Positions 1,628 to 21,453 of a stretch of DNA of 64,000 nt are shown here, piece after piece. The notes under the pieces were generated by a model. That model was given only the letters and a program-made list of their open reading frames with translations. It was not told the DNA's origin and made no database searches. The DNA is from an uncultured Pelagibacteraceae bacterium (GTDB lineage: Bacteria > Pseudomonadota > Alphaproteobacteria > Pelagibacterales > Pelagibacteraceae). The stretch is from assembly GCA_902547215.1 (NCBI GenBank), contig CACCNI010000001.1:1-64000 (forward strand). The letters are read 5' to 3'. The first letter of the stretch is position 1. Every line of letters starts with the position of its first letter. A program made the translations under genes and the position numbers.

Positions 1628-1716
1628 AAAATAATAAATTTAATTATTTAGATAATACATTCTCTAGCACAGATTGCAAAATAAAAGAGTTAAACTTGTT
1701 ATTTATTAGTTCTAAA

Positions 1717-2754
<1,038 letters not shown>

Positions 2755-3303
2755 TTATTTAAAAATTTCAGCTCCTCTAGTCATTGCAACAGCACCGGTT
2801 CTTGAAACACTCACTAAACCAGTTTTTTTAAGATCAGTCATTATAGTATCTATCTCTCTTCTTAAAGCAGTTATTTGAATAACTACTGATTTATTTGTTT
2901 TATCTAATACAACAGGATTAAATTTTTTGCAAAACTTTATAGCTTTCTTTCTTTTAATATTATTGCCCACAATCTTTAGTAGAGCCATTTCTTTAAAAAT
3001 TATTTTCTTATCACCTCTCATAAAATCAGCGACTTTATGAACAGGTACTAATTTTCCTAATTGAAGTTTAATCTGTTCTATAACCTGTGGTGTACCTGTA
3101 GTAACTATTGTAATTCTTGAAATGTTTAATTTTGAGTCAACTTCAGCAACTGCTAAAGACTCGATGTTGTATCCTCTACCAGAAAATAAACCTACAACTC
3201 TTGCTAAAACACCTGCTTCATTATCAACCCAAACAACAATAACATGTGTATCACTTTTTTGTTTTTTCCCAGGAATGCTATAAGCTGATTTAGGTTTTGA
3301 CAT
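2755..3303 (-). CDS. ilvH: Acetolactate synthase small subunit
   Basis: ACT-domain start VWVDNEAGVLARVVGLFSGRGYNIESLAV; next to the large subunit. Confidence 0.94.
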   Translation of the reverse strand: MSKPKSAYSIPGKKQKSDTHVIVVWVDNEAGVLARVVGLFSGRGYNIESLAVAEVDSKLNISRITIVTTGTPQVIEQIKLQLGKLVPVHKVADFMRGDKKIIFKEMALLKIVGNNIKRKKAIKFCKKFNPVVLDKTNKSVVIQITALRREIDTIMTDLKKTGLVSVSRTGAVAMTRGAEIFK

Positions 3304-5069
3304 TAAACTAAAGTTTTTCCTTTTCCAGTAATCTTATTTTCTTTTTGATCATTTGGACCTAACAACATTTGGTTATGTGGTTTACCAGATGGTATCATTG
3401 GAAAACAATTTTCTTCTTTGTCAACTAGACAATCAAAAATAACAGGTTTGTTTACATTTATCATTTCTTTTATTTTTTCATCAAGTTCATCAGGAGTTTT
3501 GGCTCTTATACCAACACATCCATATGCTTCAGCTAGTTTTACAAAATCTGGGAGTGCTGCAGTATAACTTTCTGAATAATTTTTTTCGTGAAGAAGTTCC
3601 TGCCATTGTCTTACCATTCCCATATACTCATTGTTTAAAATAAAAATTTTAATAGGTAAATTATATTGAACTGCTGTAGACATCTCCTGTATTGTCATCA
3701 ATACTGAGGCCTCTCCTGCTATATCAACTACTAATTTATCAGGATGTGCAATTTGAACGCCAACTGCTGCAGGCAAACCGTATCCCATTGTTCCCAAGCC
3801 TCCAGATGTCATCCATCTGTTTGGTTTATTAAATTTGTAATGTTGAGCTGCCCACATTTGATGCTGACCTACTTCCGTGGTAATGTAAGTATCTTTATCT
3901 TTTGTGAGCTCATACAATCTTTGAATAGCGTGCTGTGGTTTTATTGTTTTATCACTGTTTATAAAATTAAGTGAGTTGACTGATCTCCATTCAGAAATTT
4001 TCTCCCACCATTTTGATGTTTTTTCTTTATTCGAACTTGCAAAATTTGAATGTTTTTTCTTTAGAGTCTTTATTACTGAAAGCATTACTTCAGAAACATC
4101 ACCAACAATTGGTAAATCAACTTTTACATTTTTATTTATAGATGATGGATCAATATCTATATGAACTTTTTTAGATTTTGGTGAAAATTCATCTATCTTT
4201 CCAGTTATCCTATCGTCAAATCTCGCGCCAATGTTAATCATCAAATCACAATCATGCATAGCATTGTTCGCTTCATAAGTTCCATGCATACCAAGCATTC
4301 CTAAAAATTGATTATCGTCCCCAGGATACGACCCTAAGCCTTGCAAAGTTGAAGTTATTGGAAAACCAGTAAGAGACACAAGCTCTCTTAATAGTTCGCT
4401 TGCTTTTGGTCCAGAATTAATTACACCACCACCTGTGTACAATATCGGCTTAGATGAATTAACCATCAACTTTACAAGTTGATCGATTTCGCCTTGACTA
4501 AATTTATTATGAATTTTGCCATTTAATTTTTTTCTTTTGATTAAATTAACATATTTTGTTTTTTGAAACTGAATATCTTTTGGTATATCAACAAGAACAG
4601 GTCCTGGTCTTCCAGTTGTAGCAACTTCAAAAGCTTTATGTATAATTTTAGATAAATCTTTTACATCCTTAACAAGCCAATTATGTTTTGTACATGGTCT
4701 TGTTATTCCTGTTGTATCGCATTCCTGAAATGCATCTGTTCCAATTAAATGTGTTGGAACTTGTCCAGATATACAAACTAACGGTATAGAGTCCATGTAT
4801 GCATCTGTCAAAGCGGTGACGGCATTTGTTGCTCCTGGTCCAGAAGTAACTAATACAACACCAGGCTTACCCGAGGATCTTGCATAACCTTCTGCTGCAT
4901 GTCCTGCACCTTGTTCATGTCTTGCTAAAATATGTTTTATACTATCATGATTTTTTAATTCATCATAAATTGGAAGAACTGCACCTCCAGGATATCCAAA
5001 TATATATTCTACATCTTGAGCCTCAAGACATTTAAAAACAATTTCTGCACCTGAATATAATTTAGACAT
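3303..5069 (-). CDS. ilvB: Acetolactate synthase large subunit
   Basis: ThDP enzyme: EYIFGYPGGAVLPIYDEL, RHEQGAGHAAEGYARSSGKPGVVLVTSGPGATN. Confidence 0.95.
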   Translation of the reverse strand: MSKLYSGAEIVFKCLEAQDVEYIFGYPGGAVLPIYDELKNHDSIKHILARHEQGAGHAAEGYARSSGKPGVVLVTSGPGATNAVTALTDAYMDSIPLVCISGQVPTHLIGTDAFQECDTTGITRPCTKHNWLVKDVKDLSKIIHKAFEVATTGRPGPVLVDIPKDIQFQKTKYVNLIKRKKLNGKIHNKFSQGEIDQLVKLMVNSSKPILYTGGGVINSGPKASELLRELVSLTGFPITSTLQGLGSYPGDDNQFLGMLGMHGTYEANNAMHDCDLMINIGARFDDRITGKIDEFSPKSKKVHIDIDPSSINKNVKVDLPIVGDVSEVMLSVIKTLKKKHSNFASSNKEKTSKWWEKISEWRSVNSLNFINSDKTIKPQHAIQRLYELTKDKDTYITTEVGQHQMWAAQHYKFNKPNRWMTSGGLGTMGYGLPAAVGVQIAHPDKLVVDIAGEASVLMTIQEMSTAVQYNLPIKIFILNNEYMGMVRQWQELLHEKNYSESYTAALPDFVKLAEAYGCVGIRAKTPDELDEKIKEMINVNKPVIFDCLVDKEENCFPMIPSGKPHNQMLLGPNDQKENKITGKGKTLV

Positions 5070-5118
5070 TTAACCAATCTAGCTGAAGTTGAGCTAATTG
5101 GTCAAGTTTTAGCAGAAA

Positions 5119-6030
5119 TTATTTTAAAATTTTTTTGAATGGATTTTTTGATTTTGGATCAATTTTGTGCCAATTAATCATATGACCTCGAGACCAAGTG
5201 CTCTGTCTTTTGGCGTATTGTCTAGTTTTTATTAATATCTGTTCTTTAATATCGTTCAATTCAGCTTTTTTACTTAAAAAAGAGTTTATCTCTTTAATAC
5301 CAATCACATGATTAACGCTATTCAGTTTGTCAATTTTAATGAGATTAAATTTCCTAACTTCATTTATGGCTCCTAAATCAAACATCCTATCTATTCTTTT
5401 TTTGATATTCTTTATTAATTTGTCTCTTGGATAATCCACATAAGTCATCACAAAATCATTCTTATCAAAAAAGGTCTTTGTTTCTTTGAACCATTTGTAT
5501 AATGATTTTTTTGTAAGCTTTTTAACTTCGTATGCTCTAATTGATCTATTAACATCATTTGAATTAATAAATTTTTTAGAGACAGGATCTAATTTGACTA
5601 ATCTTTTATAAAATTGCTTTTGGCCCAATTTTTTATGAAGCTTAAGTATCTTATTTTTTTCTGAAGGTTTGAATTTTGGAATGCTTACTAGACCATCAAC
5701 TAAAGCTTTAAAATAAAGGCCAGTTCCACCAACAATAATTGGAGTTTTATTCTTTTTTCTAATAAGTTTAATTATTTTAATACACTTTTTAAGCCATTGG
5801 CCAGTCGAAAATCTTTTCCGCACATCAATGATGCCAAATAAATGGTGTTTAATAGTTTTTTGATCTTTTTCTGAAGGTCTTGCTGTTAGAATTTTAAGTT
5901 GTTTATAAACTTGCATGCTATCAGCATTAACAATTTCCCCTTTTATCTTTTTTGCTAAATTTATGGCAATATTAGATTTTCCTGAAGCAGTTGGGCCAGC
6001 GATTAGAATGATTTTGGACTTCAAGTCCAT
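5119..6030 (-). CDS. miaA: tRNA dimethylallyltransferase
   Basis: IAGPTASGKSNIAINLA, NADSMQVYKQLKILTARPS, VGGTGLYFKAL. Confidence 0.93.
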   Translation of the reverse strand: MDLKSKIILIAGPTASGKSNIAINLAKKIKGEIVNADSMQVYKQLKILTARPSEKDQKTIKHHLFGIIDVRKRFSTGQWLKKCIKIIKLIRKKNKTPIIVGGTGLYFKALVDGLVSIPKFKPSEKNKILKLHKKLGQKQFYKRLVKLDPVSKKFINSNDVNRSIRAYEVKKLTKKSLYKWFKETKTFFDKNDFVMTYVDYPRDKLIKNIKKRIDRMFDLGAINEVRKFNLIKIDKLNSVNHVIGIKEINSFLSKKAELNDIKEQILIKTRQYAKRQSTWSRGHMINWHKIDPKSKNPFKKILK

Positions 6031-6031
6031 G

Positions 6032-7432
6032 TTATTTTAATTTGACACCTATATATCTTTTTTGATTTTGATCATTAATTACAGCTATCAAAATTGTTTT
6101 ACTTGAAGTCTTGAGAGCTGCATTTACTAAATTATTAAGTTCTGTTGCACTCTTAATATTTCTTTTTTGTGCCTCGACTATTAAATCACCAACTTTTAAA
6201 TAGTTTATAGGGCTTTCTGTATCTATCTTTGTGATCACAACTCCAGTCGTGTTTAATGGAATTTTTTTCTCAACTAAATCATCTTTGGTAATCTTTCTTG
6301 CTTCAATTTTTAACCCATTTATGAAAGTCGTTTTAGGTTTTGTTGGTTTTTCTGCTTTGAAGTCCTCAGAAGTTTCTAATCTTCCTAAAGTAATTTTTTT
6401 TGTAATTTCTTTTTTATTTCTCCAAATTTTTACATTAACCACTTTTCCAACTTTTGTTTGCGCAACAATCAAAGGAAGCTCTTGCATCTCATTTATTTTT
6501 TTACCATCAAACTCTAAAATTATGTCACCATCTTTTATCCCAGCTTTATCTGATGGACTGCCCGGTGCAACACTAGCAACTAATGCACCTCGTGCTTTTT
6601 TCAATTTTTCTACATCTGCTATTTCTTTTGTAACAGTTTGAATTCTTACCCCTAACCAACCTCTTTTTGTTTCGCCAAATTCTAAAAGTTGATCAATTAC
6701 TAGTTTGGCACTATTTGATGGTATAGCAAATCCAATACCAATAGATCCTGACTGACCTAATATAGCAGTATTAATTCCTACCACCTCTCCTTTCATGTTA
6801 AATAAAGGACCTCCAGAATTTCCGGAATTTATCGATGCGTCTGTTTGTATAAAATCTTCGTAACGTGCCATACCTATATTTCTATTTCTTGCTGAAACTA
6901 TTCCTGCGGTTACAGTTCCTCCTAATCCAAATGGATTTCCAATTGCTATAACCCAATCTCCGATTCTTGCAGTATCAGAGTTTCCAAACTTTACTGTTTC
7001 AAATTTATCATCAGTAATAATTTGTAAAACTGCAATATCAGATAAAGGGTCGGCTCCTAAAATTTTTGCCTTGTATTCTTTATCCCCATTTGCTCTTATA
7101 AATATATCTTCTGCACCTTTGATTACGTGATTATTAGTTATAACAATTCCTTTCTTGTCAATTATAAAGCCTGAGCCTAAGGCGCTAGATTTTCTTTTTT
7201 GAGGTGTTCCAAACTCTTTAAACATATCCTCAAAAGGTGATCCTGGTGGAAATTCAAAGTTAGGAAATGGGTTGGTTTTGGTCACAACAGTCGTAGATGT
7301 TGAAATATTCACAACAGCTGGCATCAACTTTTCAGTTAAATCAGCAAATGAAGCAGGTCTTTCTTGTGAAATTGCTGAGTGACTGAAAAATGTAAAAACT
7401 ATAATTAAAAATATTGATCTCAGAGCCCTCAT
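6032..7432 (-). CDS. degP: DegP/HtrA-family periplasmic serine protease with PDZ domains
   Basis: Signal peptide; GSGFIIDKKGIVITNNHVI, SGNSGGPLFNMKGEVVGINTA. Confidence 0.9.
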   Translation of the reverse strand: MRALRSIFLIIVFTFFSHSAISQERPASFADLTEKLMPAVVNISTSTTVVTKTNPFPNFEFPPGSPFEDMFKEFGTPQKRKSSALGSGFIIDKKGIVITNNHVIKGAEDIFIRANGDKEYKAKILGADPLSDIAVLQIITDDKFETVKFGNSDTARIGDWVIAIGNPFGLGGTVTAGIVSARNRNIGMARYEDFIQTDASINSGNSGGPLFNMKGEVVGINTAILGQSGSIGIGFAIPSNSAKLVIDQLLEFGETKRGWLGVRIQTVTKEIADVEKLKKARGALVASVAPGSPSDKAGIKDGDIILEFDGKKINEMQELPLIVAQTKVGKVVNVKIWRNKKEITKKITLGRLETSEDFKAEKPTKPKTTFINGLKIEARKITKDDLVEKKIPLNTTGVVITKIDTESPINYLKVGDLIVEAQKRNIKSATELNNLVNAALKTSSKTILIAVINDQNQKRYIGVKLK

Positions 7433-7437
7433 TATCG

Positions 7438-7623
7438 TTATCCTTTAATAAACCATATAATAAAGAAACCAATTAAAGCGAATATAATTCCACCTGATCT
7501 TAATTGTTTGTCATTAATCATTTTTAATTTCTCTAACATACTTTTCATTTTTGAAGGAAATAAGGCATAAAGAATTCCTTCTATAAAGAGAAATAAACCT
7601 AAAGCGACAATTAAGTCGTCCAT
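7438..7623 (-). CDS. DUF2065-like small membrane protein
   Basis: 61 aa, two hydrophobic segments, typical position between hflC and degP. Confidence 0.7.
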   Translation of the reverse strand: MDDLIVALGLFLFIEGILYALFPSKMKSMLEKLKMINDKQLRSGGIIFALIGFFIIWFIKG

Positions 7624-7627
7624 TTTA

Positions 7628-8494
7628 CTAATTTTTAATTTGTGCTTTTACGTTTCCAAAGAATTTGAAAAATTCACTGTCAGGTGACATTATAAGAGAA
7701 GTTTCACCACCTATTAATGCTCTCTCATAAGCTTGCATCGCTCTATAGAAAGCGAAGAATTCTGCATCTTTTCCAAAAGCATCAGCAAATATTTTATTAC
7801 GCTGACCATCACCTTCACCCTTCATGATCTCTGATTTTTTTTGTGCCTCTGCAAGAATAACCGTAACTTCTTTATCAGCTGTTGAAGTAATTGTTACAGC
7901 CATTTCTGCTCCTTTTGCTCTAAACTCTTTTGCTTCTCTCTCCCTTTCAGTTTGCATTCTTCTATAAATGGCATCACTGTTTGCCTGAGGTAAGTCTGCT
8001 CTTTTAATTCTTACATCAACTATTTTTATACCAAAGTTTTGTGCCTCATTATTAACTCCCTCTTGAATAAGAGTCATTTGTTTATTTCTATCTTCAGATA
8101 ATAAAGTTTGTAGTTCTTGAGTACCTAAAACACTTCTTATTCTTGAGTTAATAATTGTTGATAATCTTGATCTAGCAACCCTTTCATTTCCAACAGAGAT
8201 ATAAAATTTTAATGGATCAACAATTTGAAACCTTGCAAATGCATCAACAATTAATCTTTTTTGATCTGATGCAATAACTTCTTCTGGTGGAGCATCTAAG
8301 TTTAAAATTCTTTTATCGAGAAATACAACGTTTTGTATAAACGGTAATTTAAAGTTTAAACCTGGTTTCAGTAAAATTCTTTTAGGATCACCAAATTGAA
8401 GTACTATCGCTTGATTTACTTCTTTTACAATAAAAATTGAAAAGAATGCTGTCAAAGCTAGAACACCAATTATTGGAAGTATAATTTTTTTCAT
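7628..8494 (-). CDS. hflC: HflC, SPFH protease modulator
   Basis: EVNQAIVLQFGDPKRILLKPGLNFKLPFIQNV. Confidence 0.92.
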   Translation of the reverse strand: MKKIILPIIGVLALTAFFSIFIVKEVNQAIVLQFGDPKRILLKPGLNFKLPFIQNVVFLDKRILNLDAPPEEVIASDQKRLIVDAFARFQIVDPLKFYISVGNERVARSRLSTIINSRIRSVLGTQELQTLLSEDRNKQMTLIQEGVNNEAQNFGIKIVDVRIKRADLPQANSDAIYRRMQTEREREAKEFRAKGAEMAVTITSTADKEVTVILAEAQKKSEIMKGEGDGQRNKIFADAFGKDAEFFAFYRAMQAYERALIGGETSLIMSPDSEFFKFFGNVKAQIKN

Positions 8495-9595
8495 TTAATT
8501 TGTTTTCTTTTTTAATTCTGGAAGTGGCAAGTAAGGAACAACTCCTGATCCTGCATTCTTCTCTATTATTACTTTATCTATATCCGCTAAAACTTTTTCC
8601 ATCGTTTCAAGATACATACGTTCTTGTGTGACTTGTTTTGCATTTTTGTACTCATTAAAAATTGCGGTAAATCTGCTTGCTTCACCCTCTGCTTTAGCAA
8701 CAACCTCTTTTTTATATGCTTCAGCAGCTTGTAAGATTTTTTCAGCTTCACCCCGTGCTCTTGGGATTACGTCATTAGCATAAGCTTCAGCTTCGTTTTT
8801 AGATCTTTCCATGTCAGCTCTTGCAGCCTGTACATCTCTAAACGCATCGATTACTTGGTCTGGTGGGTCTGCTTTTTGTGTTTGAACTTGAGTTATTTGT
8901 ATTCCGCTCTGATACTCATCCAAAATTTTTTGAATAATTTCACTTGCATCAATTTCTATTTGTGATCTTCCTTCTGTCAAAATTGGCTGAATGTCACTTC
9001 TAGCAATTACTTCTCTCATTGCTGTTTCTGCTGCAGCTTTAACTGTTCCTTCAGGATCTTGAATTTTAAATAAAAAGTTTCCAGCATCTTTTATTACCCA
9101 GAAAACAGAAAAGTCTATGTTCACAATGTTTTCGTCTCCAGTTAGCATTAAACTCTCTTCGGGAACATCAGCAACTACACCTGATGAAAAACCTGTATCT
9201 CTCTCTGATCTGAAACCAATGTCAATTCTATTAACTTTTGTTACTTTTGGAGTTAAAACGCTCTCAACTGGAAAAGGAATGTGATAATTTAAGCCAGGTT
9301 GTGTTGTTGAAACAAATTTACCAAATCTTAAAACTACACCTTGTTCATCTGGTAAAACTCTGTAAAGTCCGCTCAGTGCCCATACAATTACTAAAATTGT
9401 AAGACCAAAAATAATTGGTTTTCCTCCGCCCGAAGCTCCACCAGGAAGAAATTTATTTATTTTATCTTGAAGATTTTTTATTAATTCATCTATATTCGGT
9501 GGAGTTGGACCTCTTCTGCCAGATCCATTTCCTGAACCTCCTCCAGGGGGTGATCCCCATGGACTTCCACCTCTACCTCTAAAATCATCGACCAT
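8495..9595 (-). CDS. hflK: HflK, SPFH protease modulator
   Basis: Gly-rich N-terminus, LPDEQGVVLRFGKFVSTTQPGLNYHIPFPVE. Confidence 0.92.
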   Translation of the reverse strand: MVDDFRGRGGSPWGSPPGGGSGNGSGRRGPTPPNIDELIKNLQDKINKFLPGGASGGGKPIIFGLTILVIVWALSGLYRVLPDEQGVVLRFGKFVSTTQPGLNYHIPFPVESVLTPKVTKVNRIDIGFRSERDTGFSSGVVADVPEESLMLTGDENIVNIDFSVFWVIKDAGNFLFKIQDPEGTVKAAAETAMREVIARSDIQPILTEGRSQIEIDASEIIQKILDEYQSGIQITQVQTQKADPPDQVIDAFRDVQAARADMERSKNEAEAYANDVIPRARGEAEKILQAAEAYKKEVVAKAEGEASRFTAIFNEYKNAKQVTQERMYLETMEKVLADIDKVIIEKNAGSGVVPYLPLPELKKKTN

Positions 9596-9677
9596 GACAA
9601 TGTATATAGTGTCTTTAATGTGAAAAACAAGTTAAGTATGCTAAAACATCCTTATAAATAGTGGACTTAATGAAGCA

Positions 9678-10475
9678 ATGATTGAAAAACCAAGAGCTAA
9701 AACCTTTACAAAAAACCCAATAATTGGGACCAAATTCACAATAGCTGTATCAAGTGCAAAAGGAGGAGTTGGCAAATCTACTTTTGCATCCAATATTGCT
9801 TTAGCTTTAAAAAAACAAGGATGTAGAGTTGGTTTACTAGACGCTGATATTTACGGTCCTTCATTACCAAAATTATTCGATATAGGAGATAAACCAGAAA
9901 GCGATGGTCAAAGATTAATTCCAATTTTAAAATATGATATTCAATGTATGTCTATCGGGTTTCTTACTGATGAACAAACCCCAATGATTTGGAGAGGTCC
10001 TATGGTTACGAGTGCGATTAAAACATTTACACAAAAGGTTGCTTGGAAAGATCTGGATTTTATTATTGTCGATATGCCACCTGGAACAGGGGATACCCAG
10101 CTTACATTTACACAAGAAGTGAAAATGGATGGAGTGATAATAATTTCAACACCGCAAGAGATAGCTTTGCAAGATGTTAAGAGAGGGATAAAAATGTTTG
10201 ACAAGCTCGGGACAAAAATAATCGGATTAATAGATAATATGAGTTTTTTTAAGGGGGATGATGGAAAAAAATACCATATATTTGGAGAAGGTGGAGTTAA
10301 AAAAACTGCTGAAGAATTCAGAAAAGATTTTTTGTGTGAAATACCTCTTGATCCTGAAGTAGGTAAACAAGGAGATAAAGGAATACCGATAGTTGAAAGC
10401 AATCCTGAAAATGAAGTATCTAAGATTTACTTGGAATTAGCATCCAAAATTAAATCCATTTATCTCAACTTATAG
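9678..10475 (+). CDS. mrp: Mrp/ApbC-family Fe-S cluster carrier ATPase without the N-terminal DUF59/MIP18 domain
   Basis: VSSAKGGVGKSTFASNIALAL deviant Walker A; IVDMPPGTGDTQLTF. Confidence 0.9.
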   Translation: MIEKPRAKTFTKNPIIGTKFTIAVSSAKGGVGKSTFASNIALALKKQGCRVGLLDADIYGPSLPKLFDIGDKPESDGQRLIPILKYDIQCMSIGFLTDEQTPMIWRGPMVTSAIKTFTQKVAWKDLDFIIVDMPPGTGDTQLTFTQEVKMDGVIIISTPQEIALQDVKRGIKMFDKLGTKIIGLIDNMSFFKGDDGKKYHIFGEGGVKKTAEEFRKDFLCEIPLDPEVGKQGDKGIPIVESNPENEVSKIYLELASKIKSIYLNL

Positions 10476-11129
10476 GTAATTAGAAATACCAAATAAATGT
10501 AAACCTCTTAAATATTTACTAAATCTTTTAGGATTAAAATTTGAATTTCGTATCAAATTTAATGCCAAATTCTTATTTTCTGGTTCAAACTTTATCTCGA
10601 TGACATTCATAAAATCCTTCATTATATTTTTTTTGAAAGATTTTTTATTTATCAATTTGTAGCTTATTTGACGATCATAGGTAATTCTAATTTTTTTCTG
10701 GTATACAAAATAAGATCTTAGATAACTGACATTCATTTTTGGTAGAAGATTGTTTAAACATAAATAGTTTAAAAAAAATTCATTCTCTTTCTTTTTAAGA
10801 AAATCATTTTTATTCGAAAATAAAAGATTTACATCTAACAAACTGTGATCAGATTTTAAAGAAAGTTTTTTACCTAAATTATCTTTTTTTATTTTAATTT
10901 CATAATTAAAATTTTTATCCTTATCATTGTACCACCTTATTCTGTATTTACGTCTATTTGAAATGCCAGCAAGATTATCTCTTGCTGTAGTAAAATTATC
11001 ATTATCATAATAAATACTGTTAATAAATCTATCCTTATATTGTTTTTGTATTTTACTTTTAAAATTAATCCAGTTGTCAAAATATAACTCAAAATTATTA
11101 TTTATTGGGATTTTAATTTCACTTCGCAT
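10470..11129 (-). CDS. VTC-domain (polyphosphate polymerase-like) protein
   Basis: RFINSIYYDNDNF, RRKYRIRWY, YEIKIKK, RITYDR, VIEIKFE, FSKY: alternating charged strands of the VTC/TTM fold. Confidence 0.7.
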   Translation of the reverse strand: MRSEIKIPINNNFELYFDNWINFKSKIQKQYKDRFINSIYYDNDNFTTARDNLAGISNRRKYRIRWYNDKDKNFNYEIKIKKDNLGKKLSLKSDHSLLDVNLLFSNKNDFLKKKENEFFLNYLCLNNLLPKMNVSYLRSYFVYQKKIRITYDRQISYKLINKKSFKKNIMKDFMNVIEIKFEPENKNLALNLIRNSNFNPKRFSKYLRGLHLFGISNYL

Positions 11130-11137
11130 GTTTAGAA

Positions 11138-13798
11138 TTAATTATAAAGTTTTTTTATATCAATAATTTTTCCTTTAACTTTATTATTGTCTAAAATTAA
11201 ATCACTTCCAATTTGTACTAAAGGTAAACCGCAAGATGAAAATTGATCAATTTCTAGGTAAGCGCTGTTAAAATAAGGTTTCTTTTGATAAACAGCAAAA
11301 TCATACAAGTTACATTTTGAAACTTTGATATTGCTTCCATAGACTTTACTTGAGTCCTTACTTGCAATACCTATACCTGATGATGAAATCTGTAAATTAT
11401 TTATCTTCAGATTTGATTGTTCTCCAGCTGATATTGCTTTATCAAAAACATTTTTTGCATTTATATCTTTAAGATAAACATCTGAACCAGAAAGATCTAT
11501 TGCATCTCCCCCAACTTTATCAAAAGTTGTGTTAGTTATCTCACCATTTCCAAAATCAATATCAATTGCATCAGAAATAGTGTTGTTAACTTTAGATGAT
11601 GAAACCTTAAATTCTGATTTTACAAAATTTATTGCATCCTCAGAAACCGAATTGCTTATAACGCTATTCGAAATTTTAACTTTAGATTTTATAAAATTTA
11701 ACCCACCTGTTAATTGTATCCTTCCATTATCGAAATAAGAAAAATTAGAAACTTTCACAAAATTTAAATTGGAATAGTTGTTATCCTTAGCATTAGAATT
11801 GACATAGATACCTTTCCAAACTTCTTCAGGATTAAATGATGTAATCGTAATTGGATAATTTTCAGTTCCATCCATTTTAATTGATCCGCCCTCTACCAAA
11901 ATATATGATTGCTTAGACATCCTTAAAGTTGAACCTTTTTTTATTAAAAAGTCATATCCACTTGGAATTATTATTGGATCATTAATTATGTGTGTTCCTT
12001 CATCTAAAACGTAATTTTTGCCCTTAATAGAAATTTTAAGATTTTTTATATCATTAACATTCTTGAAGAATTCGTTTTTTTTAAACATACGCTTTTCGAT
12101 TTTTTCCTCAACAGAGTTTATTCTATTTGATTGATCTAAATATTTAATCTCTAATGAATCATAATTCTTATTTTTTAGATCGACGTTTATTTTTTTAAAA
12201 TTTAAATTTTCGTAGGTACTAGGTTTTAAAATGGAACTTGACTGACTAATGTCAATTACCCTCTTGCAGTTTATCTTACATTGAGAAATATTTTCAAATA
12301 CCAGTTTATCTAAACGTAAAATTTCGCTTGTTAAATTATTCAAAAAAATTGTTCCATCATCAAAAACACGAAAATGTATCTTTTTAATATTAAGATTTTT
12401 TGTGTTCAGTGTATTGAATTCTCTCTTTGTTATTTTTAGATTATTATCTTGAAGATTTTGAAAAATATTACTTTTTTCCCTATAAATATATTCAATATTT
12501 TTTCTTATAAGATCGAGATCAACTAAATTTTGACAATTCTTTCCAAAATCTTGGCAGGCTAGAACAAATTTTTTTTCAATTTTTTCAAAATTATTTCTAT
12601 ATTCATTAATTATTTGAAAATACTTTTTTTGAAACTCTTTTGTTTGAAAGAAATTTTTATAAAGAATATTATAATTATTCATGAATTCTCTCATTTTTTT
12701 TTGACTGGCAATATTTGATCTAGTTGTGTCAGTAAGTATTGGTTCTATTTTAAGATTATAGGGGTTGATATAATATCTAGAATTTGTAGGCAATCTGCTA
12801 TGGTGGTCGCCAAACATAGATGTTATTGCAACTATTTTTGCAATTAAGTTTACATCAACATGATCTTTTATTTTTTCAAAATATCTATCATCCTGAAGTG
12901 CAACTGTTTCCTGAATATTCTTAAAAATACTTAATAAATTTAGATTCGTTTTTTGCCTAGGAATATTTGTCTTTTTAAAAATTCTTTTTTCATTATAAAC
13001 TTTTGTTTCTAATTTGCCTTGCCACCTGATTATATCATCTACATTTTCTAGAGTTCGATTGGCTATCGTTTTTATTGTAAAATCGTTTTCATTTGTCATT
13101 TTAAATATTGGTGCCTCTTTTAACTGATTGTGAGCATAAAAAGAGTCTGAAAACTGTTCTTCTAAAAGCATTATTCCCCAATTTTCTCCATTAAAATTAA
13201 CTTTAACTGTTTCATATCTTGGGGTTAAAATTTTATTTTCTCTAAAAATTTCTGAAATAACAAAATAATTAGGATAATCTCTTTCTCTGTGCACTGAAAT
13301 TGAAAATTCATTAAACCCTAAAATTGTTCTATTCTTATTTAGTTTAATTCTTAAACTCCACTGTTTGATATTACCCCAATGTTGTTTTAAATCACCTTTA
13401 AGTCTAGCTGTTGCTTTATATTCTTTACCTTGAAATAATAAATTTATTTTTACTTTTTGAGGATCTACCAATTTATTTAGATAAAGAGCTTTACTTCTGT
13501 CTTTTTTTAATTTCTCTAATTCTGAAAAATTGATATCAATTTTAATTTTTTCAAATTCTTTTTTTCTAAAAATTTTATTCTCAATTCCATAAAATAACTT
13601 AATTGAATAGTCAATTATTCTGTTTTCGTGAACAGGCTTTGATCTTAAAAGTATAGGCTGAGATAAAAAAATTCTCAAAGACTGTTCTAAATCTCCTTTC
13701 AAACCAGGTGTAATTTTAATTAAAAAAAATAGTAAAAAAATAAAAAGTGTTAGTAATAAAAAAAAAGTATTATTTTTTTTTTGTTTGAAAATTCTCAA
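11138..13798 (-). CDS. CotH-kinase-like protein with C-terminal right-handed parallel beta-helix
   Basis: N-terminal TM; ATARLKGDLKQHWG, NWGIMLLEEQFS, FGDHHSRLPTNSRYYINPYNLKIEPILTDTT resemble CotH motifs; C-terminal repetitive SNSVISNSVSEDAINF-type coils. Confidence 0.7.
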   Translation of the reverse strand: MRIFKQKKNNTFFLLLTLFIFLLFFLIKITPGLKGDLEQSLRIFLSQPILLRSKPVHENRIIDYSIKLFYGIENKIFRKKEFEKIKIDINFSELEKLKKDRSKALYLNKLVDPQKVKINLLFQGKEYKATARLKGDLKQHWGNIKQWSLRIKLNKNRTILGFNEFSISVHRERDYPNYFVISEIFRENKILTPRYETVKVNFNGENWGIMLLEEQFSDSFYAHNQLKEAPIFKMTNENDFTIKTIANRTLENVDDIIRWQGKLETKVYNEKRIFKKTNIPRQKTNLNLLSIFKNIQETVALQDDRYFEKIKDHVDVNLIAKIVAITSMFGDHHSRLPTNSRYYINPYNLKIEPILTDTTRSNIASQKKMREFMNNYNILYKNFFQTKEFQKKYFQIINEYRNNFEKIEKKFVLACQDFGKNCQNLVDLDLIRKNIEYIYREKSNIFQNLQDNNLKITKREFNTLNTKNLNIKKIHFRVFDDGTIFLNNLTSEILRLDKLVFENISQCKINCKRVIDISQSSSILKPSTYENLNFKKINVDLKNKNYDSLEIKYLDQSNRINSVEEKIEKRMFKKNEFFKNVNDIKNLKISIKGKNYVLDEGTHIINDPIIIPSGYDFLIKKGSTLRMSKQSYILVEGGSIKMDGTENYPITITSFNPEEVWKGIYVNSNAKDNNYSNLNFVKVSNFSYFDNGRIQLTGGLNFIKSKVKISNSVISNSVSEDAINFVKSEFKVSSSKVNNTISDAIDIDFGNGEITNTTFDKVGGDAIDLSGSDVYLKDINAKNVFDKAISAGEQSNLKINNLQISSSGIGIASKDSSKVYGSNIKVSKCNLYDFAVYQKKPYFNSAYLEIDQFSSCGLPLVQIGSDLILDNNKVKGKIIDIKKLYN

Positions 13799-13803
13799 TT
13801 TGT

Positions 13804-14487
13804 TTAATCTACAATTTTATTTTCATAAAAAGAATAATTTAAATTATCAAATTTTTTATTTAAATTATCCATTAAAAGTTTAATATTTTTCTCATTTCCA
13901 AATGAAACTTTATAATAAAGTGTAATATTATTTTTTTCTTTTTCAATTTTTGCTAGGTTTGCTTCAAGACAATTTTTTTTTAGGTGCTCTAAAATTTTAT
14001 CAAAATAGTCTTGATTTTTGTCTAAATCGCATTCTATTATTAAGTTAAATTCATTTGTAATTAGATTTTTTCTTGAAGATAAAAAAAACCAAATAATCAA
14101 AATTAAAATTAAAAAAATAATGCTTGTTGTATAAATTTGAAGTGCTCCATATCCAATACCAAGTGCTATTGCAAAAAATAAGAACGCTAAATCTTCTGGC
14201 TCTTTTACTGGAGTTCTAAATCTTATGACCGATAAAGCTCCAACCAAGCCAAGTGATAACGCTAACGATGATTTTACAATTAGAATCACTAAGAAAGTAA
14301 TGTTACTTAAAAGCGGAATTATTGCTGAGACTTGAACTTTTGAAGATAATGCATTTGATTTAGTTTTGTAAACATACATTAATATAAATGAAGAAATGAT
14401 ACAAAAAAATAAACTCAGTATAACTATTAGATAATCTGTTTCGCCTACAGTTTCTAAAGATCTTGACAGTTTATTTGTTATATCCAT
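13804..14487 (-). CDS. DUF4956-family membrane protein
   Basis: SSLALSLGLVGALSVIRFRTPVKEPEDLAFLFFAIALGIGYGA signature. Confidence 0.82.
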   Translation of the reverse strand: MDITNKLSRSLETVGETDYLIVILSLFFCIISSFILMYVYKTKSNALSSKVQVSAIIPLLSNITFLVILIVKSSLALSLGLVGALSVIRFRTPVKEPEDLAFLFFAIALGIGYGALQIYTTSIIFLILILIIWFFLSSRKNLITNEFNLIIECDLDKNQDYFDKILEHLKKNCLEANLAKIEKEKNNITLYYKVSFGNEKNIKLLMDNLNKKFDNLNYSFYENKIVD

Positions 14488-14580
14488 AGTGGCCTAATTC
14501 TTAAATTCTTAATGTTGAATTTTAAATTATTTTTTCTTTTAAATCAAATCCCCCGATGGATATCTCTAAACTCAAAAAAA

Positions 14581-15330
14581 TTATTTATATTTGTAAATTT
14601 TTTTTTTGTAAATTTTAGATTTTGCCAAAACATAATATAACATTTCAATAAAATTTGACATCAAATAAATAAAGCCATTATAATAATTACATGAATTTAC
14701 TTTATCACCATAATCAGCTGAAATACTTATTTCTCCATATTTTAAGTCAAAAAATTTAGTCATCAAAATTATTTGAAAAGAAAATAAATAATTGTTTGAA
14801 CAATCCTCAAATTGAACTTTGTTGTAAAAACTTCTGCCAAAAATTTTGAATCCTGTATGAAACTCAGTCAATTTTATAGAAAAAAGTTTACTTGTTAGGC
14901 TGCTCATGAACTTATTTGAAAGATATCTTAAAAAAGGCATTCCTTCTTCCTTATAAGGATTTTTGTTTACAAATCTTGATCCAATAATCAATGCATAATC
15001 TTGATCTAAAAAATCTTTTGCTTTCAAAATTAAATTTGGATCATATTGATTGTCAGCATGAATTTCTAAAACATAATCGGCACCATCCTCAAAAGCAGTT
15101 TTAATTGCTTTTTTTAAGTTTCCACCATGACCTAAATTAGTTTGATTCTTTGCTGCTTGCCAATCAAACTTTTTTGCAATTTCATATGAATTGTCTGTTG
15201 AGTTGTCATCAAAAAAATATATTTTATCAAATAGCTCTTTATCAATTCTCTCGTAAAGGTCTTTTATAGTTGATTCACTATTATAACAAATTACTACACC
15301 GTAAATTTTTTTATTAGAAATTTTGTTCAT
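14581..15330 (-). CDS. GT2-family glycosyltransferase (polyprenol-phosphate sugar transferase type)
   Basis: VVICYNSESTIKDLYERI, FFDDNSTDNSYEIAKKF, EIHADNQYDP. Confidence 0.82.
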   Translation of the reverse strand: MNKISNKKIYGVVICYNSESTIKDLYERIDKELFDKIYFFDDNSTDNSYEIAKKFDWQAAKNQTNLGHGGNLKKAIKTAFEDGADYVLEIHADNQYDPNLILKAKDFLDQDYALIIGSRFVNKNPYKEEGMPFLRYLSNKFMSSLTSKLFSIKLTEFHTGFKIFGRSFYNKVQFEDCSNNYLFSFQIILMTKFFDLKYGEISISADYGDKVNSCNYYNGFIYLMSNFIEMLYYVLAKSKIYKKKIYKYK

Positions 15331-15331
15331 C

Positions 15332-16471
15332 TTATAGATTAGTACACTCTGTCATATTTGGTAAAGGTGTAAAATATTTAAATTCAAAAATTCCAATAGT
15401 TAAAGAAATTAAAATAAAAAAACCAAATATAAATTTAAATAAATGGTTATTTTCTAATTGAAAAAGCCTTATAAACAAAGTTAATAATATAATTCCTGGT
15501 ATGACCGCATATCTTCCGCCTACAAAATTTGGATACAATGATCCAACTAAAACAAAACCCGAATGTAATATAAATGAGGCAATGATAAGTATAGTTATAT
15601 TGTCTTTTTTTTTTTGAAAAATTTTAAAAGCAAAAAACAAAGAAAAAATTAGTATTAAAATTAAAGCAATTAAAATTGTATCATTACCAGTTAGATTAAA
15701 TTTATTATAAAAAAATTTAGGGATAGAACTTCCAAAAAAAGGTCTAACTAAAATATTATAAGAAAAACTCTCAATTTTATTAATATTAAATGAAAATCTA
15801 TCTGCGTTGTTAGAGGAAAAAATGAAAATGAAAATATTGATTATTAGGGGAAACAAGGAGCATAGAAAATTAAGAAAATTATCTTTTTTTTTTTCTAGTA
15901 TAAACTTTAATAGAAATATTGGAGCAATCACACTTGCATAGATACTACTTAATCCACTAAAAATAATAATAGATCTGTACAGTTTCTTTTTAAAGTTTTC
16001 TAAAACAGTAAAATCTTGAAAAATTAACACGAAACTAAGTATTCCAAAATATGCTTTTATGTGGGCCGGTGTGAGCCATATTTCAGGTGTCATTGGAGGA
16101 GACAATAAAATAAAAAAAATTAATAAAATTTTATAACCTTTGTTATAAAAAAAAATCGATTTAGAAAAATAGATATAAGTAAAAATTAATAAATAAATAA
16201 TTGATGTAAGATAGGTGCTAATTTTTTGAGAAAAAGTTGGAAAATAAGTTGCTAATTTAGTAATTATATTTCGAGTAAATTCGAAATAACCTCCATAATC
16301 ATAAATATATAAAATTGATGTTAAAAAATTATTTTGCAAAGAATATTCATAAAAAGAATCTTGTTTTATTTGCCAATATCCTTGATCAATAAATATACAA
16401 GGTGCTCTAAAAAAAATTAAAAAAACCAATATTAAAAAAAAAGAAGGAAAAAAAAGTTTATTTTTCAACAT
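15332..16471 (-). CDS. Polytopic membrane protein, possibly GT-C-like
   Basis: 379 aa with about ten hydrophobic segments; abuts the GT2 gene. Confidence 0.5.
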   Translation of the reverse strand: MLKNKLFFPSFFLILVFLIFFRAPCIFIDQGYWQIKQDSFYEYSLQNNFLTSILYIYDYGGYFEFTRNIITKLATYFPTFSQKISTYLTSIIYLLIFTYIYFSKSIFFYNKGYKILLIFFILLSPPMTPEIWLTPAHIKAYFGILSFVLIFQDFTVLENFKKKLYRSIIIFSGLSSIYASVIAPIFLLKFILEKKKDNFLNFLCSLFPLIINIFIFIFSSNNADRFSFNINKIESFSYNILVRPFFGSSIPKFFYNKFNLTGNDTILIALILILIFSLFFAFKIFQKKKDNITILIIASFILHSGFVLVGSLYPNFVGGRYAVIPGIILLTLFIRLFQLENNHLFKFIFGFFILISLTIGIFEFKYFTPLPNMTECTNL

Positions 16472-17437: not shown

Positions 17438-17464
17438 GAATTTTATTGAATCTTTATATATAAC

Positions 17465-17740
17465 TTTTATATTAATCGTGTTGGTTTTCCAACTATGACG
17501 ATAAACGAATTTCGTAATAAACATTACGGACGTGGGGGCAGTACCCACCACCTCCACCATTTACAACTTACGGGGGTGAACTAGGATCGACGGATGTCTA
17601 AAGGCTATTTTTTCGTTCGGGATTGTTCCACCGTAACGGGCTATTTATAATTGCAAATGATAAATTTGCTCTTGCTGCTTAATTAATTTATTAATTAAGT
17701 AACGGGGTTTTGGGGCACCTGGCAACAGAACGCCCCTAAG
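17465..17740 (+). ncRNA. ssrA: Circularly permuted two-piece tmRNA (ssrA); outer ends approximate
   Basis: Acceptor piece ...GTGGGGGCAGTACCCACCACCTCCACCA ends at 17560; coding piece begins GGGGGTGAACTAGGATCGACGG at 17573; GGGGGTG pairs with CACCTCC. Tag ORF GCAAATGATAAATTTGCTCTTGCTGCTTAA (17653-17682) = ANDKFALAA*; ends in GGGGCACCTGGCAACAGAACGCCCC. Confidence 0.93.
17712..17737 (+). repeat. Direct repeat copy 1 (3' end of ssrA): GGGGCACCTGGCAACAGAACGCCCCT
   Basis: Exact 26-nt match to 19413-19438. Confidence 0.95.
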
Positions 17741-17863
17741 CAGATTCGAATTTCACACACTACGCAACACTTTTAGAAAAAAAAATAATAATGGGCGTCC
17801 TATGGGCGTCACAGTGGTGGTAAAAATCTTTACATTGTTGCCAAAATTTATTAATTTTTTTGT

Positions 17864-18064
17864 ATGGTAAAGAAAAAAAGTGGAAATCTTGGTAATAAAT
17901 TTGCAAGTATTGGCTTAATTGCTCTTGGGCTATTATTCTTCTTAGGGGGTTTATCTGTTGTCGGCTCAGGTTCTCAATCTGAAACAATTACATTTATTTT
18001 AATTGGTTTAATAATGGTTGTTTTAGGTGGTATATTATTCAAAAAATCTTTTTTGAATAAATAA
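17864..18064 (+). CDS. Small two-TM membrane protein
   Basis: 66 aa, two hydrophobic segments, basic ends. Confidence 0.5.
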   Translation: MVKKKSGNLGNKFASIGLIALGLLFFLGGLSVVGSGSQSETITFILIGLIMVVLGGILFKKSFLNK

Positions 18065-18081
18065 AAAATCTACTGACCTTG

Positions 18082-18882
18082 CTAAATTTTACAAATTGAG
18101 TTGCTGCTACCTGCTATATTTTTAGTTCTTATAAATTTTTTTTTATCCACATTAGACTTGTTCAAAAACTCAATTAATTCGTTTTGGTTTAGATTTTCAT
18201 CAAACCAATTAGCATAACATTTGCAATATTCTTTAACCTTCGGAGTTAAATTATTTTTACTTTGAGCACCTTGTAGACAGCCATCTTCCATTTGTTTTAT
18301 CATTATATTCTTCATATCAGATTTAGCATCTTTTTGATTTTCATTTTTTTCTTTTTCACAATTATACTCACTTGAACCAATGAACATTTGTGAAAATTTT
18401 TCTTTATTATTTTCACTTAGATCAAGAATATAATCTTTTGTAAAAAAATATCTTTGGACTTCATTTTCTAGTTCAGTATCAGATAAATTAAAGTTTTTGA
18501 AATTTTCAACACTATTAATAATTGAATTAAACTCTGATTTGAGACTTTTAATTTCGTTCGAATAAAAATTGTACCTACTTAATTGTCTGACATTGCCCTC
18601 TTCAACACTAATTTCGTCTACGGTTAAAGCTTGTTCATTTCTATTGTAACCAAAAATTCTTCCCTCGTAAATTTGTCCAAAATTGAGATATTCTTGTCCT
18701 AAAATAGTCACCGAATAAGTTACAAATTTACCATTGGCATAATCAAAAGAGTCATAAATTTTTAATTTTTCAGTCAAAAATCCGGGTTCTTTACAAGAAT
18801 AGGTTTTGTTAATTTCTTGTGACAAAACTGAATTTGAAAAAAAAATTGTAAAAACAAAGATTATTGAAAGATAATTTTTCAT
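18082..18882 (-). CDS. Hypothetical secreted protein
   Basis: Signal peptide MKNYLSIIFVFTIFFSNSVLSQ; no recognised domain. Confidence 0.6.
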   Translation of the reverse strand: MKNYLSIIFVFTIFFSNSVLSQEINKTYSCKEPGFLTEKLKIYDSFDYANGKFVTYSVTILGQEYLNFGQIYEGRIFGYNRNEQALTVDEISVEEGNVRQLSRYNFYSNEIKSLKSEFNSIINSVENFKNFNLSDTELENEVQRYFFTKDYILDLSENNKEKFSQMFIGSSEYNCEKEKNENQKDAKSDMKNIMIKQMEDGCLQGAQSKNNLTPKVKEYCKCYANWFDENLNQNELIEFLNKSNVDKKKFIRTKNIAGSSNSICKI

Positions 18883-18891
18883 AAAATTTTA

Positions 18892-19290
18892 CTACCTACA
18901 TTGCGTCTTATTGTTCTCAAAATTTACCGTTTTGTCATCAAAATTAATAATTATTTCAAATTTATAAGCATCTGCGGATATTAATTTTGCATAATTATCA
19001 TCGGAGTATATTACATCATACTCACGAATTCTTGTTTTTTTAAGTCTAAATGAATTTCCCTCAGATTTATATTTCTCATTAACTTTTTTTACATATTTGT
19101 CAGAGTAATCCAAAACCATACTTCCAACTTTTTTTTTTATATTAATTATGTAATACCATTTATCCATTTTATTTTTGTCGAATTTTTTATCTACAAAAGT
19201 ATTAAAACATTTTTCTAGTTTAATTATTTTTGATTGCGAGGGACTGGCAATAAACAAGCTAATAGTCAATATTGCGAATATTTTTTTCAT
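18892..19290 (-). CDS. Hypothetical secreted protein
   Basis: Signal peptide MKKIFAILTISLFIASPSQSK; no recognised domain. Confidence 0.6.
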   Translation of the reverse strand: MKKIFAILTISLFIASPSQSKIIKLEKCFNTFVDKKFDKNKMDKWYYIINIKKKVGSMVLDYSDKYVKKVNEKYKSEGNSFRLKKTRIREYDVIYSDDNYAKLISADAYKFEIIINFDDKTVNFENNKTQCR

Positions 19291-19412
19291 ATATGCAAGA
19301 TATCAAATCTGATAATATGTGACGAGTAGTTATTTGGCGTCGTGGTGGCGTTATTTAATTACTAAATCTTACTTTTAGGTTCAAATTATTAGCGTATAAT
19401 GGTACAAAGTTC

Positions 19413-19438
19413 GGGGCACCTGGCAACAGAACGCCCCT
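19413..19438 (+). repeat. Direct repeat copy 2 of ssrA 3' end
   Basis: Exact 26-nt copy followed by TTT; no tag ORF or tRNA-like part upstream. Confidence 0.95.
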
Positions 19439-19439
19439 T

Positions 19440-20516
19440 TTAATCTAAATATTTATCTAAAGTTTTTTTGTCAGAAACAACAATAAAATCATCATAATGA
19501 ATTGTTTGATCTGGGTATCCTTCTCTATTTGGATCAGAGTCTCTATAAGGTCCTATTCTTATATCTGTTCCCTTATATTGACCACCTTTCCAATCATAAC
19601 TAATTCCTGAATAATTCATAATTAATTCATCATTTTTATATACTTTCACGTAACCATCATTTTGTTTTGAATTTTTTATACCAATTTTAAAAGTTATCCA
19701 TTTTCCAAGTTCATTTACTTTAATTTGTTTTTTTATTTTTTGAATTTTTTTACAAAAACTTGGTTTTTCACCTGAGTTTAAATAACCTTTTTTTTTCCAA
19801 AGTGGTTTTCCATCAACTCCATAACAACAAATTTTCCGTGTTTCATAGTCTGAACAACCAGAACAATTATTTTTATTACTACAAAGTGACACATCCTCAT
19901 AATCAGATTCTCTTTCTTTTATTTTATTTAATATCCAACTATCATTATTTTTAAAATATTTTGATCTTATTGCATGTTTTTTGTGTTCTTTTTTGTTGTA
20001 CCATTTAGCAGGATTCCCACCTGTGTCCCCTCCAATATCTAAAATATTACCATTCTTATAAAATCGAATACCAAGAAGCGGACTTTTTTTCATAGGATCA
20101 AATTGATTTTTAAACTGAGTAATTAATAATCTATCATCAATATGAATAAAATCTTTTGGAAAACGTATTTTAAATCCATACCACACTTCTTTATTTTTTG
20201 TATTCCTGTAACCAGTCCCAAGTTCTGCACGCTCTGTCACGCCACCAGAACCCATATCTTTATTTGATTTATCTTTTACTGTAATTGCAAGAAAAGTGTT
20301 GCCATCTTTATCTTGTTCAAATTTAAAAGGTTTTTTTCCTGAACCTTTGTTATTAATTTTTAGTTTTTTGAAACTTTTGCTCTCAAAATTTTCATAAAAG
20401 TTCCAAGGTGACTTTGTTTTTTTATCTACATAATCTGGAACAGGAACTTTTTCCCAACTAAAAGCAGTAATTGGAAATGAGAAAATTAAAAAAACTAATA
20501 GTAAAACTATCCTCAT
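19440..20516 (-). CDS. Secreted heparin-lyase-I-like polysaccharide lyase
   Basis: Signal peptide MRIVLLLVFLIFSFPITAFS; GGVTERAELGTGYR, WYGFKIRFPKDFIHIDDRLLITQFKNQ, IRIGPYRDSDPNREGYPDQTIHYDDFIV. ORF track extends to 20558. Confidence 0.75.
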   Translation of the reverse strand: MRIVLLLVFLIFSFPITAFSWEKVPVPDYVDKKTKSPWNFYENFESKSFKKLKINNKGSGKKPFKFEQDKDGNTFLAITVKDKSNKDMGSGGVTERAELGTGYRNTKNKEVWYGFKIRFPKDFIHIDDRLLITQFKNQFDPMKKSPLLGIRFYKNGNILDIGGDTGGNPAKWYNKKEHKKHAIRSKYFKNNDSWILNKIKERESDYEDVSLCSNKNNCSGCSDYETRKICCYGVDGKPLWKKKGYLNSGEKPSFCKKIQKIKKQIKVNELGKWITFKIGIKNSKQNDGYVKVYKNDELIMNYSGISYDWKGGQYKGTDIRIGPYRDSDPNREGYPDQTIHYDDFIVVSDKKTLDKYLD

Positions 20517-20748
20517 AACTAAAGAATATAAGAATATTTTTAAAACAAATAAATACATTTATTTGTTTTAAAAAATTGAAAAATCAACTTTAAAGGTAAT
20601 TTCAGGTTCTAGGGTACGATAAGAGAATAATTGCCCCCGATTTCAATGAAGTTTCAAAACGAGGTTTAGGACAAAAGTTAAAACTCTCAATGAAGTTCTC
20701 AATGAAGTCATTCAAAAAAGTGTTATTTTCTGTTATAAACTGGTTTAA

Positions 20749-20775
20749 GGGGTAGAACAGAACGCCCCTTTTTAT
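20749..20775 (+). repeat. Partial/decayed copy 3 of ssrA 3' end (GGGGTAGAACAGAACGCCCCTTTTTAT)
   Basis: Shares AACAGAACGCCCCT (14 nt) and the flanking GGGG; followed by a T-run. Confidence 0.65.
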
Positions 20776-21453
20776 ATGATTTTAATTGAAAAAATATTTA
20801 ATCCCTTAATCTCTTTCCATCATAAAAGAATCTACAGATATTTGTGTGAACTAGATATTGAAAAGATTGTAGATATTGGTGCTCATAAAGGTGAATTTCT
20901 TGAAATCATGCTCAAAATAGAAAAGATAAATTCTTTTTATGCATTTGAACCTCAGAAGAAAATCTTTAATGATTTAAACGAAAAATTCTCAAATAATGAA
21001 AAAATTACATTATTTAATTTTGCAATGGATAAGGAGATTACAAATAAAAAATTAAAGATAAATAAGCTCAGTATGGCATCATCTTTAGCTGAAATTAACG
21101 AAAAATCATTATATCTCAAAATTAAAAATTTATTAACCTTTTCAAAATCAAATTTTGAAGATGAATATGAAATTCAAACTAACACAGTAGATAAAATTTT
21201 TAAGAATATAAGTTTAAAAAAAGCACTCCTAAAAATTGATGTAGAAGGTTTTGAAATGAATGTTATTGAGGGATCACAGATGAAACTAAAGGAAATTCCA
21301 TTTATTCTTCTTGAGAATCAATTTGGAAACCACTATAAAAACAATAACTTTGAGGATATAATTAAATTTCTTTTAAAACAAAATTTTAAAATTTGTAAAA
21401 AATTTATTTTTCCAACACTGCATTATCAAGACGTATTGTTTAAAAAAATTTAA
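20776..21453 (+). CDS. FkbM-family methyltransferase
   Basis: VDIGAHKGEFLEIML, FEPQKKIF, LLKIDVEGFEMNVIEG. Confidence 0.82.
   Translation: MILIEKIFNPLISFHHKRIYRYLCELDIEKIVDIGAHKGEFLEIMLKIEKINSFYAFEPQKKIFNDLNEKFSNNEKITLFNFAMDKEITNKKLKINKLSMASSLAEINEKSLYLKIKNLLTFSKSNFEDEYEIQTNTVDKIFKNISLKKALLKIDVEGFEMNVIEGSQMKLKEIPFILLENQFGNHYKNNNFEDIIKFLLKQNFKICKKFIFPTLHYQDVLFKKI

Follow-up and report, generated by a model that had tools for sequence, protein, structure and literature searches.

The permuted ssrA gene in the 64,000-nucleotide stretch of Pelagibacteraceae DNA that we analyzed (contig CACCNI010000001.1; hereafter the window) is followed by two tandem site-specific insertions, whose junctions are marked by repeats of the 3' end of the gene. 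We conclude that these insertions are likely to be integrase-less cassettes, inserted site-specifically in the terminal hairpin of ssrA and mobilized in trans by satellite elements that target the same gene. A 26-mer occurs exactly at positions 17712–17737 and 19413–19438, far beyond chance (0 recurrences are expected in shuffled sequence in a scan of the window), and nothing else lies within 3 mismatches of it in the window or in the 795-kb metagenome-assembled genome (MAG; 67% complete) to which the window belongs. Copy 1 forms the 3' terminus of an alpha-type, permuted transfer-messenger RNA (tmRNA; Rfam RF01849, with RF04321 matching too) and folds as GGGGC-AC-CUG-GCAA-CAG-AAC-GCCCC. A third site, GGGGTAGAACAGAACGCCCCT at 20749–20769, has the same last 14 bases, AACAGAACGCCCCT, as copies 1 and 2, and a scan of the MAG for this site gave a single further match, with 2 mismatches. 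The next bases 3' are AAGCAG after copy 1, TTTTAAT after copy 2 and TTTTTAT after copy 3. A first-pass annotation of the window had already reported the exact repeat, its position at the end of ssrA and the T-runs that set copies 2 and 3 apart from copy 1, all of which we recovered. It also described copy 3 as a decayed 26-mer, which we reject: copy 3 is instead the intact right end of another class of element, nearly letter-identical to a class-3 right end in AG-325-C10 (L207).

A close relative whose genome is 92% complete (G205) has the empty site, with the ssrA hairpin running directly into the sequence that is found after copy 3 in the window. The left block (window 17453–17737) matches G205 9010–9295 with 96.5% identity, the right block (window 20756 onward) matches G205 9282–16001 with 94.75% identity, and in G205 these blocks share exactly 14 nt, AACAGAACGCCCCT. 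Because the blocks meet in this way, the window holds a clean 3032-bp insertion (17738–20769), which copy 2 splits into elements of 1701 and 1331 bp. The array is flanked by thyX–ssrA on one side and by fkbM–fumC on the other. That two small elements without integrases had inserted in succession at this non-tRNA-like 3' end of ssrA, one with three small secreted or membrane open reading frames (ORFs) and the other with a polysaccharide lyase, was proposed from the window alone; the empty site, for which a comparison of relatives had been suggested, and the lack of an integrase in either element support it, and gene content behind ssrA does differ between relatives. The features of the region are as follows.

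17442–17739, + strand: permuted ssrA (two-piece alpha-type tmRNA; Rfam RF01849, 240.5 bits; ARAGORN), with tag ANDKFALAA; the primary integration target.
17712–17737, + strand: copy 1, the 3'-terminal ssrA hairpin and the junction of ssrA with element 1 (left attachment site, attL); the shared core AACAGAACGCCCCT is at 17724–17737.
17738–19438, + strand: element 1, 1701 bp, class 1, without an integrase, lying between the two exact 26-mers and within the stretch missing from G205.
17792–17810, + strand: element 1 putative left arm pair, TGGGCGTC-CTA-TGGGCGTC, 55 nt from the core; its repeat type and distance are as at the G242 integrase described below (56 nt).
17864–18064, + strand: cargo ORF of element 1, a 66-amino-acid (aa) membrane protein with a weak, sub-cut-off resemblance to SdpI and homologs in the L100 and L189 cassettes.
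18082–18882, − strand: cargo ORF of element 1, 266 aa, with a secretion-signal-like start and no Pfam match.
18892–19290, − strand: cargo ORF of element 1, 132 aa, with a secretion-signal-like start and no Pfam match.
19335–19351, + strand: element 1 putative right arm pair, TGGCGTCGTGGTGGCGT, 90 nt from the core.
19377–19412, + strand: conserved class-1 right end, ...TTCAAATTATTAGCGTATAATGGTACAAAGTTC, with 80–97% identity over 55–139 nt to right ends at many loci.
19413–19438, + strand: copy 2, the right end of element 1 and its junction with element 2.
19439–20769, + strand: element 2, 1331 bp, class 3, without an integrase, lying between copies 2 and 3 and within the stretch missing from G205.
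19440–20558, − strand: polysaccharide lyase (Pfam PF14099, E = 1.8e-21), whose stop codon abuts the core.
20686–20708, + strand: element 2 putative right arm pair, CTCAATGAAGTT-CTCAATGAAGT, 70 nt from the core; an arm-repeat scan of the left end of this element found no clear left pair.
20709–20755, + strand: conserved class-3 right end (TTATTTTCTGTTATAAACTGGTTTAAGGGGTAG), near-identical in L207 at 3669 and clustered with others.
20749–20769, + strand: copy 3, the right end of element 2 and its junction with the chromosome (right attachment site, attR).
20776–21453, + strand: FkbM methyltransferase, the first chromosomal gene past the insertions, which directly follows ssrA in the empty site of G205.

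Similar arrays are found across Pelagibacter. The 17-mer CACCTGGCAACAGAACG is present in 246 of 300 genomes of the same genus, often in 2–5 copies per genome, and many of the copies are arranged head to tail at spacings of 0.3–6 kb. Ahead of the extra copies lie recurrent right ends of elements, in three classes, all of which run into AACAGAACGCCCC: class 1 (...ACAAAGTTC|GGGGCACCTGGC, with sub-types), to which copy 2 of the window belongs; class 2 (...CAATGAAGT..TATTTTCTAATCTAATGCCGGGC); and class 3 (...TTATTTTCTGTTAT....GGGG), to which copy 3 belongs. Seventy-five right ends cluster with that of element 1. GTDB r220 genomes contain the class-1 right end at 95 loci, every one in a record titled Pelagibacteraceae, Pelagibacterales or Pelagibacter, and many of these records are single-amplified genomes, which argues against assembly chimeras. 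With up to 2 mismatches allowed, 28 of the 152 near-complete Pelagibacterales genomes contain it, and these belong to 2 of 11 genera; the count is a minimum, since it covers class 1 and not classes 2 and 3.

Between neighboring sites we delimited 132 cassettes, with a median length of 803 bp (range 121–5810); sites were called by mismatch thresholds set in this analysis, and many of the assemblies are partial. Of these, 85 contain a single ORF of 50 aa or more. The 202 cassette ORFs fall into 130 families, and 163 are antisense to ssrA (binomial P = 3e-19). The cargo includes small secreted and membrane proteins, DUF805 proteins, GIY-YIG nucleases, a trypsin-like protease, polysaccharide lyases and restriction-modification proteins of types I to III, so that varied cargo lies between near-identical sites, as the first-pass annotation had suggested looking for. 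Integrases are not among the leading Pfam families of this cargo, and the 132 cassettes gave no match to four integrases, two primases and the resident recombinase discussed below. The longest array has eight sites within 3.3 kb (G157). In another genome (G009; L108 5218–11028) a 5.8-kb insertion lies between ssrA and a class-3-like right end; it encodes two large proteins (789 and 826 aa), apparently of restriction-modification type, and has CACGAAGT arm pairs at both ends.

Many cassettes have paired direct repeats with a period of 10–12 at both ends, at fixed distances from the core. Left pairs are mostly 45–47 or 56–60 nt from it, and right pairs mostly 87–93 or 98–102 nt, or 68–69 nt in classes 2 and 3. 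The repeats differ between elements–for example TGGCACA, TGTACGGGAT, ACTCGTCCT, TGGTCGG, TGGCGTC and CATTGAAGT–and are matched within them. In the 48 elements with a clear pair at both ends, the longest substring common to the left and right arms has a mean length of 8.4, compared to 4.0 when right ends are shuffled among elements; none of 2000 permutations reached the observed value (shuffled maximum 5.25). An arm 20-mer gave 5 matches in the 300 genomes, in 3 genomes, and all of them adjoin cassette ends. A core with arm-type direct repeats on either side is the expected anatomy of the attachment (att) sites of lambda-type integrases, and these 48 elements have it. The matched pairs are putative arm sites of a lambda-type tyrosine integrase.

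Integrases beside this core are present in related strains, where the first-pass annotation had advised searching for them. A profile made from two prophage-type integrases and run against 216 genomes found one gene directly behind ssrA, in G242, where the layout is the core, 56 nt, TTGGCGTCATGGTGGCGTC and then the ATG of the integrase. Its arm type is TGGCGTC, so the arm type of element 1 in the window is one that is found at an ssrA integrase. In G161 an integrase with 52% identity to that of G242 (both PF00589) also lies behind ssrA, again with an arm pair at 56 nt (TGGTCGGGCTGTGGTTGTG; TGGTCGG/TGGTTGT). The G161 element is complete (about 6.2 kb) and consists of the ssrA core, the integrase (phrog_1), five small proteins, a 733-aa DNA primase (phrog_1156) and a class-1 right end at a second core; its small ORFs gave no significant matches. 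It has the integrase and replication primase of a phage satellite and no capsid or tail genes. The next core is 2.4 kb beyond it, so satellite and cassette stand in tandem there. Sister elements of about 6 kb with the same gene order as the G161 element, and with arm-like pairs ahead of the integrase, occur at tRNA-Gly(GCC) in G180 (L299 3260–9366; 41-bp repeats) and at tRNA-Asn(GTT) in G253 (L300, reverse complement, 4215–10704; 55-bp repeats).

Cassettes also occupy sites away from ssrA. At least 10 loci have rnhA together with a site, and most of these also have prx; cassettes in this intergenic region are seen at L104, L135, L139, L145, L173, L175, L176, L181 and L203, and nine further cassette loci are on the 3' side of pnp (L072, L087, L089, L092, L093, L113, L143, L167 and L188). 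On the chromosomal side of the rnhA–prx sites, AACAGAAC is followed by TGCCC or GGCCC and not by GCCCC, from which we infer that the crossover lies inside AACAGAAC. In G080 a homolog of the window's lyase (52% identity) adjoins a core behind rnhA; cargo of a related kind, with the same boundary, is thus present at another locus. Elements are also spread among divergent genomes: one element of about 710 bp is 94.1–97.6% identical across genomes whose adjacent thyX genes are only 81.6–83.4% identical, and a second pair of elements has 93.9% identity compared to 77.1% for thyX. This difference supports fairly recent horizontal transfer.

Among viral sequences, exact scans of IMG/VR with the class-1 and class-2 right ends, a 15-mer core, a class-A right end and an arm 21-mer returned no matches other than chance ones. 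The class-1 right end itself had no match in IMG/VR, its GTDB matches being confined to SAR11, and the window right end had none in phage records. The 57 IMG/VR contigs that contain CACCTGGCAACAGAACG (L007–L063) were considered as carriers of a phage attachment site (attP) and rejected, since nearly all of these matches are phage-borne permuted ssrA. Most of the contigs seem to have a permuted-type ssrA of their own (ARAGORN called many of these genes, with tags such as ADENLALAA, ANDDMVFALAA and ANKKALGFADLTVGMSEMRLAA), so permuted tmRNA genes are apparently widespread in phages.

We propose that a cassette would consist of one or more cargo genes between two att half-sites, each formed by the shared core and, where well preserved, by one direct-repeat pair. 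Insertion into the terminal hairpin of ssrA inside AACAGAAC would restore the end of the gene (copy 1) and would leave a further core at the right end of the cassette, open to another element, so that arrays could grow. The integrase would be supplied in trans by autonomous ssrA-specific elements such as the satellite-like element of G161, which may act on cassettes and also excise them. Passage between cells could follow from accretion with a satellite and transfer by phage, or from uptake of DNA.

Several points weigh against this proposal. Autonomous ssrA integrase elements are rare, with two confirmed, and the pairing of arms with integrases rests on those two. The right end of the G242 element is on a separate contig, with related arms. 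Relatives of the G242 integrase are present in 20 of 399 genomes of the genus, most of them not beside a core, and we found no helper integrase for classes 2 and 3. Of the 123 elements that reach 300 bp, only 48 have a clear repeat pair at both ends by the criteria of this analysis, and elements of classes 2 and 3, such as element 2 of the window, often have no clear left pair. We saw no excised circle or read-level junction, and found no attP in IMG/VR or in the phage records searched.

The alternative that survives best, which we regard as improbable, is that the cassettes are moved by a resident recombinase, as a decentralized integron. Most Pelagibacter genomes (181 of 218 in the genus, and 100 of 113 near-complete ones) encode a 317-aa Xer/Cre-like tyrosine recombinase with intact catalytic residues, usually as their single PF00589 protein, and its near-universal presence makes a test of co-occurrence with cassettes uninformative. 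The window's partial MAG has no PF00589 protein. This recombinase is probably SAR11_0551 of hypervariable region 2. It scores far below the XerC/XerD and IntI cut-offs. The Pelagibacter genomes tested (L114–L121 and L123–L125) yielded no canonical XerC/XerD pair, so this protein may serve as their only chromosome-dimer recombinase. However, it is a slowly evolving core gene without an arm-binding domain by Pfam, which would leave the variation of arm pairs between elements unexplained; it has no core site nearby, and lambda-type integrases specific to ssrA do exist.

Somewhat less probable still is that RecA-dependent homologous recombination exchanges the cassettes through their shared ends and that no site-specific recombinase is at work today. 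SAR11 recombination rates are high (PMC2217521), and element ends have 55–139 nt of homology in common, but entry into the empty site involves just 14 nt of identity, the same core is used at the unrelated rnhA–prx and pnp loci, and arm pairs that match and keep a fixed spacing call for a protein that binds them specifically. Finally, we consider it very improbable that the hairpin is a conserved structured RNA or terminator kept after genes by selection, with ordinary variable intergenic regions between its copies: the copies do fold as stable hairpins followed by T-runs, and permuted tmRNAs, those of phages among them, have the motif as their conserved end, but the precise empty site in G205 contradicts this explanation, class-2 and class-3 copies retain AACAGAACGCCCC without the left half of the ssrA hairpin, and the ends go together with arm pairs and elements. 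The first-pass annotation had allowed for a structural RNA or terminator dispersed at unrelated loci; the right ends sit instead at element boundaries.

SAR11 genomes are streamlined and are usually seen as poor in mobile elements. Insertion of integrase-less cassettes with satellite help would give them a concrete site-specific route for the turnover of small secreted, surface and restriction-modification genes, an integron-like form of gene swapping with enzymes probably borrowed from small satellites. It would account for a hotspot behind ssrA, one that integrase-dependent detection tools will overlook, and would tie this hotspot to identifiable satellites. We see about equal grounds for and against a broader proposal, in which the system is a genus-wide integrase-less platform, similar to an integron with an outsourced recombinase, that holds one-gene cassettes at ssrA, rnhA–prx and pnp. 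Its arm-pair code would select the satellite integrase and so predict which integrase moves which cassette. If this is true, it would be a main route of single-gene exchange in the most abundant bacteria of the ocean, despite their having hardly any recognized mobile elements.

Among known systems, the closest precedent is the tandem ssrA islands of Dehalococcoides, at whose borders short direct repeats of the gene's 3' end are found; some islands contain an integration module, and 15 without one were read as possible cis-mobilizable elements (McMurdie et al. 2011, PMC3146451). In both systems integrase-less units stack behind ssrA. The Dehalococcoides islands, however, use a serine recombinase and the T-loop of the tRNA-like domain, whereas Pelagibacter has the terminal hairpin of a permuted ssrA as the target and tyrosine integrases of the lambda type, and its units are mostly shorter than 2 kb with one ORF, many having matched arm pairs. 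The cassettes also resemble cis-mobilizable elements (CIMEs), which are flanked by att sites, lack an integrase and have been described as decayed integrative and conjugative elements (ICEs) or integrative and mobilizable elements (IMEs) (PMC5704250). Like CIMEs, they retain attL and attR, have no integration or transfer genes, and accrete in tandem at one target. They differ from CIMEs as described in being genus-wide recurrent minimal units with diverse cargo and conserved ends, and in having an element with integrase and primase as their one complete autonomous relative; their ends and arm type resemble those of the G161 and G242 elements, which are not ICEs, and the cassettes have no trace of an integrase or primase.

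Of two properties by which Islander recognizes genomic islands in tDNA (PMC4383910), an intact target at one end with a displaced fragment in the same orientation at the other is present, and an integrase inside the island is absent from the window elements and from the 132 cassettes. The G161 element resembles phage satellites of the P4 and PICI (phage-inducible chromosomal island) type in its integrase, small ORFs, primase and lack of structural genes; the window cassettes differ in having neither integrase nor primase. Tycheposons are cargo elements of streamlined marine bacteria, located at tRNA genes and equipped with tyrosine recombinases. They span 4–200 kb as quoted in PMC10872708, whereas the window cassettes are 1.3–1.7 kb, lack integrases and are at ssrA.

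The likeness to integrons lies in the arrays of small, mostly one-ORF cassettes with a shared end site and biased ORF orientation. Pelagibacter arrays differ in being anchored on an RNA gene and in having arm sites on both sides, and they are not integrons but only analogous to them: the window array, between thyX–ssrA and fkbM–fumC, has no intI beside it, and its site, read directly and not with an attC-specific model, is GTTCGGGGC...AACAGAACGCCCC and not the attC core GTTRRRY/RYYYAAC. An earlier survey found no attC sites in SAR11 hypervariable regions (PMC2217521). We found no earlier report of ssrA cassettes in SAR11 in the literature searched, which did not extend to subscription journals and preprints. 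Compared to all of these systems, what differs here is the target in the hairpin of a permuted ssrA, the small size of the units (mostly single genes, from below a kilobase to 2 kb), the arms that are matched within elements and variable between them, and the complete autonomous partner element with an integrase and a primase.

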